A DNA stretch of 64,000 bases, taken from Kosakonia oryziphila (lineage in GTDB: Bacteria; Pseudomonadota; Gammaproteobacteria; Enterobacterales; Enterobacteriaceae). The DNA lies in contig NZ_FMBC01000017.1 in assembly GCF_900094795.1 (NCBI RefSeq), forward strand, positions 1-64,000, in the 5' to 3' direction. Every line of letters begins with the position of its first letter. Position 1 is the stretch's first letter. Made by a program: the position numbers and the translations under genes. This document shows positions 1 through 1,611 of this stretch, one piece after another. The notes beneath the pieces are model-generated. The model searched no databases. It was not told where the DNA came from and saw only the letters and a list, made by a program, of their open reading frames with translations.

Positions 1-252
1 CATCTGCTAGTAAAAATCCCCCCGAAATTATCGATATCACACGTAATAGGTCATTTGAAAGGAAAGACAGCGCTGAGATTGTTCAGCAAATTTCCGTACC
101 TGAGGAAGAGCAAATTGTGGGGAAATCATTTCTGGGCGCGAGGGTATTGCGTGGATACCGTAGGTATCAATGAAGAGATGATAAGAAGGTATGTGAAATA
201 TCAGGAAAAACACGAACAAGAAGAGAGCCAGCTTCAGCTAAAAGAGATGTGA
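1..252 (+). CDS. tnpA: IS200/IS605-family transposase TnpA, C-terminal part (cut by window edge)
   Basis: Single-strand transposase of the Y1 HUH class. The frame is open from base 1 to the TGA at 250-252, giving about 83 residues; the start lies off the left edge. It opens with HLLVKIPPKLS, which fits the end of the metal-binding HUH motif of TnpA, and continues with the family blocks HLKGKTALRLF, FWARGYCVDTVG and RRYVKYQEK. The tyrosine in the last block is at the position expected for the nucleophile. The family is about 150 residues long, so roughly half is seen. A TTG at 55 could be read as a start, but similarity begins before it, so this is a truncated view and not a short gene. Whether the upstream half is intact cannot be told here. 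Confidence 0.85.
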   Translation, partial: HLLVKIPPKLSISHVIGHLKGKTALRLFSKFPYLRKSKLWGNHFWARGYCVDTVGINEEMIRRYVKYQEKHEQEESQLQLKEM

Positions 253-282
253 AGCGAAGGCTCTCAGAGTCAGAGCTAAGTA

Positions 283-331
283 CGCCCCTCTGGGGCGCAA
301 TCAATGCCACCTGCTATGCAGGTGGTTTTTT
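283..331 (+). repeat. Two hairpins after the transposase, IS right end or terminator
   Basis: Two perfect hairpins follow the transposase stop. The first is CGCCCC/GGGGCG with loop TCT (283-297). The second is CCACCTGC/GCAGGTGG with loop TAT (307-325), followed by six T (326-331). The second has the form of a Rho-independent terminator. IS200/IS605 elements also carry subterminal hairpins recognised by TnpA at each end, so one of these may be the right-end structure. The exact IS boundary is not visible because this family makes no target duplication. Confidence 0.55.
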
Positions 332-595
332 ACGCCTGTAATTTGTGCCGGGCGGGTTGTTAGCCTCCCTGTCTGGCTTCATCTGGCGATTCTGCCGGCT
401 GCGACAGCCTGCATCTCTCTTCTGGCATTCTGTTTCTGGACTGCACGCAATGTGCTGAACCGGATAGATGCGAGCAGCAAATTGAAAGCTCTGCGCTTTA
501 CCCACGCACCGATGCAGCTTGCCCGATGGGTAACCAGAAAGGTGAGATGTTTCCGCCTCAAGACCCTTTTTTTAAAGCCATTTATAACCCTCTGA
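314..595. other. Unrecognised remnant between IS end and CRISPR array
   Basis: This stretch has no complete gene that I recognise. On the plus strand one frame stays open to a TGA at 593-595 and includes a hydrophobic run near 371-430 followed by a basic tail, but it has no clear start or ribosome site. On the minus strand overlapping frames at 314-505 and 379-561 have tails that faintly recall Icd/Ash-type proteins of P4-like satellites. That link rests on memory of the family only. The stretch is best read as decayed mobile-element DNA; no function is proposed. Confidence 0.25.
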
Positions 596-693
596 TTAAC
601 AAGTTCTTTTATATTGCGATGAAAAAAAGGGTTAAGACGCTGAAAAGTGATTATCTTTTATTAAAAACAACAGGATGATATTGTTTCCCTTCA
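596..693 (+). promoter_or_regulatory. Probable CRISPR leader
   Basis: AT-rich DNA directly upstream of the first repeat. The array reads left to right because the degenerate repeat, which in such arrays is the leader-distal one, is on the right. Leaders of this kind carry the array promoter and the sites used for spacer insertion. No promoter can be assigned from sequence alone. Confidence 0.45.
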
Positions 694-901
694 GTTCACT
701 GCCGCACAGGCAGCTTAGAAAGCAAGGAACAGGACGAACTTTTAGATGAATGGGTTCACTGCCGCACAGGCAGCTTAGAAAAGTGTAGGATATATTTGGT
801 TCATGGCGCAATGGTTCACTGCCGTACAGGCAGCTTAGAAATTCTCCTGCGTTGCCTTTCACCGCCCGCAGCCGTTCACTGCCGTGCAGGCAGCTTAAAA
901 T
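694..901 (+). CRISPR. Type I-F CRISPR array, 4 repeats and 3 spacers, no cas genes in view
   Basis: Repeats of 28 bp at 694-721, 754-781, 814-841 and 874-901 alternate with three 32-bp spacers (722-753, 782-813, 842-873), a strict 60-bp period. The repeat begins GTTCACTGCC and ends with GGCAGCTTAGAAA. This is the I-F repeat of Escherichia and Pseudomonas, with CTGCC/GGCAG forming the stem cut by Cas6f. Repeats 1 and 2 are identical; repeat 3 differs by one loop base. Repeat 4 differs at several positions, including a changed 3' end, and marks the trailer end. The neighbour is infA, matching the clpA-infA site of E. coli I-F loci. No cas gene occurs between the left edge and infA or elsewhere in the window, so the array is orphan within what can be seen. 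Confidence 0.95.
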
Positions 902-1042
902 CATCGCTACCGCACAGAAAACCGTTTGCTAACGTTTGCAACTGTGTAGATAAGCAGAAAATAACAGGCCGTTAAAATCGGTGGGGAAAAGCTAATTAAG
1001 AGTTAATTTAGCAGCACTATTATTTTTGTTGCGAAGAAACAC
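902..1042. other. Intergenic DNA between CRISPR array and infA terminator
   Basis: About 140 AT-rich bases with no gene, tRNA or repeat that I can support. In K-12 the tRNA gene serW lies close to infA on this side, but no tRNA-Ser sequence is present here. Confidence 0.6.
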
Positions 1043-1065
1043 AAAAGACCGGGGATTACCCGGCC
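1043..1065 (-). terminator. infA terminator
   Basis: Read on the minus strand, a GC-rich stem (GGCCGGG pairing with CCCGGTC, loop around TAATC) is followed by TTTTG. It lies about 40 bases after the infA stop. Confidence 0.8.
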
Positions 1066-1103
1066 TTTAAAAGAGATGCACTTAACTGTGCTGGCGGAAG
1101 ATC

Positions 1104-1325
<222 letters not shown>

Positions 1326-1611
1326 ATCCTCGGGGGTATCACTACCATAATTTTTGAACCGGCAAGATAATGCCGAAGTTCGTGTGTTAAGTAAAGATTT
1401 GTGCTGATAAAACGCAAGTGCAGCAAAACGACTTTTGCCAGTTACCCTCACGCCACAGCCAGGACGCGCTAAATGCGCAACCGTAAAGGGGAGCGATGGA
1501 GTAAACGAAGGGCATCCCTGATACGAACAACTCCCGGATGGGGCGGGGCAACAGGCAAAAGCTGCTTTGAGCGTCCATTATAACACCCTGATAAAAAATG
1601 TGCCGAAAACA

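Follow-up and report, generated by a model that had tools for sequence, protein, structure and literature searches.

The CRISPR array beside infA

The analysed DNA, referred to below as the window, is a stretch of 64,000 nucleotides of Kosakonia oryziphila, and near its left end it carries a short type I-F CRISPR array lying between part of an insertion sequence and infA. The features of this region are given below in window coordinates.

1..325, + strand: 3' part of an IS200/IS605-family element (right end at about 325), with the C-terminal part of TnpA at 1-252
326..693, + strand: host flank with leader; the part conserved with a congener is the last ~35 nt (659-693)
694..721, + strand: repeat 1, leader-proximal, GTTCACTGCCGCACAGGCAGCTTAGAAA, located by repeat search, with a 5-bp hairpin fold
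722..753, + strand: spacer 1, target in Guernseyvirinae-type phages
754..781, + strand: repeat 2, located by repeat search
782..813, + strand: spacer 2, targeting a phage gene for a CI-type repressor, at its start
814..841, + strand: repeat 3, located by repeat search, with a hairpin fold
842..873, + strand: spacer 3, targeting a small phage gene of unknown function, at its 3' end
874..901, + strand: repeat 4, degenerate and terminal, ending in TTAAAAT and marking the leader-distal end
1044..1068, - strand: terminator-like hairpin between the array and infA, from a terminator scan
1104..1322, - strand: infA (IF-1), in convergent orientation to the array; the matching places of E. coli carry the annotation infA

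The four 28-nt repeats begin at 694, 754, 814 and 874, and their start-to-start distance of exactly 60 nt leaves three spacers of 32 nt, as an earlier note on this DNA had described. A pattern search of the whole genome allowing up to 3 mismatches returned these four copies and no others, and the reversed-pattern control returned none. Repeat 2 has the sequence of repeat 1, repeat 3 departs from it in one base of the loop, and repeat 4 is degenerate both in the loop and at its 3' end. Since in I-F arrays the degenerate repeat is the leader-distal one, the leader lies left of the array, which is read in the direction of infA. Repeats of 28 nt of the GTTCACTGCCGTACAGGCAGCTTAGAAA type separated by 32-nt spacers identify a type I-F array, an assignment supported by repeats of the same type that sit near Cas6f in relatives. 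For all three repeat types a 5-bp hairpin of -8.6 kcal/mol is predicted (equalled by 6, 6 and 12 of 200 shuffles), and as a predicted fold it corresponds to the hairpin cut by Cas6f in I-F repeats.

Base 1 of the window is also the first base of its contig (C127), and the clpA side was therefore sought on another contig. The last part of clpA and its terminator were found on contig C89, where the ~319 bases past the terminator are IS200-like, with 94.7% identity, over 318 bases, to a copy on a Salmonella plasmid that is annotated as tnpA, IS200/IS605. The first open reading frame of the window encodes the C-terminal portion of an IS200-type transposase (Pfam Y1_Tnp PF01797, E 3.7e-20), and the last 17 bases of C89, taken as reverse complement, are the first 17 of the window. 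Homology to the DNA downstream of clpA in another Kosakonia genome, G001 (locus L007), extends on C89 as far as L007 base 1258 and starts again in the window at L007 base 1252, the restart lying at window position 326. Thus the interval from clpA to the array appears to consist of one IS200 and ~370 bases of flank; the order follows from the 17-base overlap and the matching target site of two unjoined contigs, and not from a read. Extension toward clpA, which the earlier note had proposed as a check, brought to light this IS200 (at the end of C89 and the start of the window) and, in the interval from clpA to the array, no intact I-F cas operon. The position between clpA and infA that the note had assigned to the array, which is that of the orphan CRISPR4 arrays devoid of cas genes, is upheld, with a join across the IS200 that we infer.

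Compared with the same place in G001, the flank at 326-473 (~150 nt) is 81% identical and the leader end together with the first repeat, at 659-721 (63 nt), 95% identical. When the last 60 nt of the leader were compared with 16 others, two were clearly alike, namely those of G001 (z 17.7 against shuffles) and of L108, an I-F array in an Enterobacter MAG (35/60 positions ungapped, z 11.9). Most of the others were not: the leaders of G004 and L059 were weakly similar (z 3.6), those of L065 and L095 hardly so (z 2.4), and the other ten stayed below z 2. Two terminator-like sites were observed within 250-1350 against 1.0 expected from shuffles. In G001 additional DNA, absent from the window, lies between its lone repeat and infA (L007 ~1630-1830).

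Cas genes and related arrays in Kosakonia and other genera

The Aat protein encoded beside infA has its best relatives in Kosakonia sacchari (98%) and K. arachidis (97%), in a search that may omit records very close to the own genome; the assignment of the 15 genomes compared below to Kosakonia follows from it. None of 5,426 E. coli genomes has a place covering 80% of window positions 1-1400, and in every record the best place stays below 95% identity. The host is not E. coli, and a reading of the region as an E. coli locus finds no support.

Models of Cas6f (TIGR02563), Cas1 (PF01867), Csy3 (TIGR02566) and the I-F Cas3 (TIGR02562) gave no match in the own genome, and an E. coli control genome was positive with each of them. 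The search of the own genome consisted of these four models; within that scope no component of a complete I-F CRISPR-Cas system (cas1, cas2/3, csy1-3, cas6f) was detected. The absence of cas genes in the window and the orphan state of the array, both proposed earlier, are thereby extended to the whole genome as far as the four models reach. The assembly is a draft of 129 contigs with completeness scored at 100% and contamination at 0.04, so that a cas locus could still have escaped assembly.

Cas6f was matched in none of the 15 Kosakonia genomes and in 51 of the 295 genomes of the wider family. Cas1 matches were present in two Kosakonia genomes, G002 (L130, 36 bits) and G003 (L131, 35 bits), above the curated cut-off of 22.3; both are without Cas6f and may possess another CRISPR type, and the own genome has no Cas1 match. 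The repeat was matched in four of the 15 genomes, with four copies in the own genome (G000), seven in G004 and one each in G001 and G006, and had no match in the remaining 11. An eighth, degenerate repeat was noticed by eye in G004.

Both G004 and G001 resemble the own genome in having I-F repeats at the same infA-adjacent site and no match of Cas6f or Cas1. G004 differs from it in the number of repeats, seven intact and one degenerate, and in the ~8 kb between clpA and the array, whereas in G001 only one repeat remains. This lone repeat combines the loop of window repeat 1 with the tail type of a terminal repeat and one base of its own, a structure that recombination between the first and the last repeat could leave. 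It lies ~290 bases past the clpA stop, with no IS between. The ~8 kb stretch from clpA to the orphan array of G004 (L139 3662-11713) lies where cas genes are situated in other genera, and by reading it encodes a RES/Xre toxin-antitoxin-like pair, CoA-transferase subunits, a thiolase, a transporter and a LysR regulator. In G006 one decayed repeat (L141, 3920) is found ~660 bases from the end of clpA.

Outside the genus, the surroundings of infA were inspected in the best 80 of 145 loci of other genomes. At least two repeats were present in 14 of these 80, and Cas6f in five of the 14, in the short flanks that were covered. The other nine are without Cas6f within such flanks, three of them ending at contig ends (L061, L079, L108), and further cas genes may therefore lie outside. 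In one further locus (L093) Cas6f is present and the repeat has no match. The five loci with Cas6f, at most 3.4 kb from the infA-side array, belong to Pseudocitrobacter (L059), Escherichia (L070, L072), Enterobacter (L095) and Citrobacter (L101); they share with the Kosakonia array the repeat family, the direction and the infA side, and differ from it by the presence of Cas6f, for which the Kosakonia genome has no match. A 38-repeat I-F array adjoining infA was seen in Escherichia sp. E1V33 (L065 7303-9528), with no Cas6f in the next 3 kb and with open reading frames of fimbrial type (by reading) after the array; it is possibly a long orphan array.

Matches of the spacers in viral and host DNA

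The PAM of I-F systems is GG beside the leader-proximal end of the protospacer, as stated in a section of PMC3506596, and consequently reads CC on the spacer strand. Each of the three spacers has a viral match of 31/32 with CC at this place, and leader-side CC is found at 9/9 viral loci aligned (5, 2 and 2 for spacers 1, 2 and 3).

Spacer 1 is matched at 31/32 in the IMG/VR viral contig L123, which shares many stretches with Guernseyvirinae phages, a subfamily of virulent phages. Further matches are in Enterobacter phage phiEap-2 (29/32), two Salmonella phages (27 and 28/32) and other aligned loci (27-28/32). Altogether 47 phage records gave some match to this spacer; the three of them aligned by hand all have CC, as have all eight spacer 1 loci (phiEap-2 counted twice). 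Spacer 2 is matched at 31/32 in the IMG/VR contigs L126 and L127, at the start of a CI-type repressor gene (the L126 product belongs to PHROG 4, transcriptional repressor, E 3.8e-46), so that a temperate phage is the likely source. In the 15 Kosakonia genomes its target is absent, the sole match being the spacer itself. Spacer 3 is matched, again at 31/32, in the IMG/VR contigs L128 and L129, where the target lies in a small gene of unknown function, at its 3' end.

The degenerate patterns employed in the viral search rest on reading frames guessed from the spacers and from distant matches, and would miss matches out of frame; the 31/32 values were measured afterwards without them. Weaker phage matches of 23/32 each and without CC, to ninB of SEN22 (spacer 2) and to an Erwinia phage (spacer 3), were dropped in favor of the 31/32 viral ones. 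A plasmid origin of the spacers was set aside as well, the matches listed among 72,556 plasmid records being at chance level (best E 3, 9 and 0.7, one spacer at a time). Among E. coli genomes, spacers 1 and 2 as a joined query gave no match and spacer 3 alone gave a single weak one (E 6).

The viral contigs with the spacer 3 target are 74% identical over ~530 bases to contig C76 of the own genome, which is prophage-like (terminase- and portal-like open reading frames by reading) and contains two partial matches of spacer 3. At site 1 the match is 27/32, with mismatches at positions 1, 4, 5, 6 and 32 and with AC on the PAM side, the flank having G at the third target-strand position. Site 2 matches at 22/32: positions 1 to 22 are all identical, and its PAM-side flank is CC. 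According to the portion of PMC3506596 on which we draw, interference can persist when G stands at target-strand position two or three. Site 1 would then be protected by the mismatches near the PAM and not by its flank. In I-F systems the seed is the leader-side end, and with 22 perfect positions from that end site 2 might allow priming.

Relic or functional array

We consider it very probable that the locus is a relic type I-F CRISPR array whose cas operon is gone, which was one of the options named in the earlier note and which agrees with the lack of matches to the cas models and of an operon on the clpA side. An ancestor would have had a working I-F system between clpA and infA that took spacers beside CC motifs from phages. 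The cas operon would then have been lost, an IS200 would have landed in the clpA terminator, and the array would now be eroding, perhaps through repeat-repeat recombination. Because Cas1 was not found, the array should gain no spacers in this cell, and because Csy3, Cas6f and the I-F Cas3 were not found, it should cut no targets there. Most likely it does nothing at present and persists as an inert, legible memory of phage encounters. Were I-F Cas proteins to arrive, its intact repeats would be expected to yield working crRNAs against these phages. Beside the draft state of the assembly and a clpA-IS200-array order read from a short overlap, a point against a relic is the 95% identity to G001 of the leader end and first repeat compared with 81% in the flank; the numbers are small, and the better-conserved leader end could hint at lingering use of the array.

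In E. coli, CRISPR features lie beside infA in the places that match the window, and the I-F locus there has clpA on its other side, as the earlier note states. The original work on interference by such arrays with plasmids carrying I-F cas genes is reportedly that of Almendros in 2016. These arrays bear the name CRISPR4 (CRISPR4.1-2) in an excerpt of PMC4489801. The great majority of their spacers match cas genes in those E. coli that lack I-F cas genes (a passage of PMC5972030), and they can interfere with plasmids bearing I-F cas genes (a passage of PMC8616872). The Kosakonia array is like them in its I-F repeat, its 60-nt period, its few spacers, the absence of cas genes and its place adjoining infA, and the same chromosomal site, the same short cas-less form and a mechanism already described would suit an array whose spacers help to destroy incoming I-F cas DNA by means of the Cas proteins that this DNA encodes. 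The spacers argue otherwise. All three have 31/32 matches in viral contigs, and against 20 loci around I-F cas genes their best scores were 20, 22 and 21 of 32, where 114 shuffled spacers reached a maximum of 22; at least two pairs of these loci seem to be the same contig, and a locus may hold less than a full operon. The set nevertheless yielded a positive control, since the spacer of an orphan array in Escherichia albertii (L073) scored 25/32, with the flank ATCC and within a long open reading frame, which demonstrates that such spacers can be detected by this test. We rejected this reading on these shuffle-level scores and regard it as highly improbable.

The control array itself consists of two repeats (L073 7845-7905), and its spacer matches, with a CC flank, the Cas2/3-like frame of L153, which we take to encode Cas2/3; by the published E. 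coli pattern the spacer is, judged from its sequence, of the anti-cas kind. Eight spacers of L061 and L065 scored 23-24 of 32 against the cas loci, slightly above shuffles, and six of the seven G004 spacers 20-21 of 32, at chance level. The comparison with E. coli CRISPR4 made in the earlier note accordingly stands for position and fails for content: the spacers match phages with the I-F PAM and none of the cas loci tested. A further difference is the IS200 between clpA and the array.

The partial matches in C76 suggest another role, in which the orphan array would be no plain relic and would act as a self-targeting lock, any incoming I-F Cas proteins priming on or attacking the chromosome through the prophage-like contig. 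We hold this to be unlikely; if it were true, lysogeny by the C76 prophage could have favored the loss of cas and could block its return, and cas genes would be excluded without any anti-cas spacer. The array might also be kept on standby for immediate anti-phage use by transient or incoming I-F Cas proteins, for instance plasmid- or phage-borne ones. Three of its repeats are intact and predicted to fold, every spacer has a viral match with the right PAM, and the leader end is conserved with G001. Retention by selection is, however, hard to reconcile with 11 of 15 Kosakonia genomes lacking a repeat match. All 15 lack a Cas6f match, promoter-like sites do not exceed chance within 250-1350 (two against 1.5 expected, neither in the leader), and we find such a standby function quite improbable. 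Regulation independent of Cas, with the array RNA acting on infA or clpA, would agree with the convergent orientation toward infA; the terminator-like hairpin lying between the two speaks against it, and given the many congeners without the repeat such a role could not be general. Its probability appears to us extremely small.

The array that we regard as a relic belongs to a known kind, the orphan I-F arrays at clpA-infA, and its spacers differ from those of the E. coli anti-cas kind. Among the matches listed, the literature on type I-F, clpA and infA concerns mostly E. coli. No description of the array was met with in the titles, abstract openings and partial, mainly non-subscription texts on Kosakonia and CRISPR, and the part of PMC5392936 that mentions one CRISPR array in K. 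oryzae does not state its type. Our results bring a case from Kosakonia into the group of cas-less I-F arrays at clpA-infA, for which the best descriptions come from E. coli. They also show that an orphan I-F array need not bear anti-cas spacers, as all three spacers here match viral sequences almost exactly and with correct PAMs. The self-match in C76 could make regaining an I-F system costly for this host. The Kosakonia series, with 8, 4, 1 and 0 repeats and a Cas6f match in none, offers a way to ask how arrays decay once cas is lost and whether prophages with self-matches are behind the loss.
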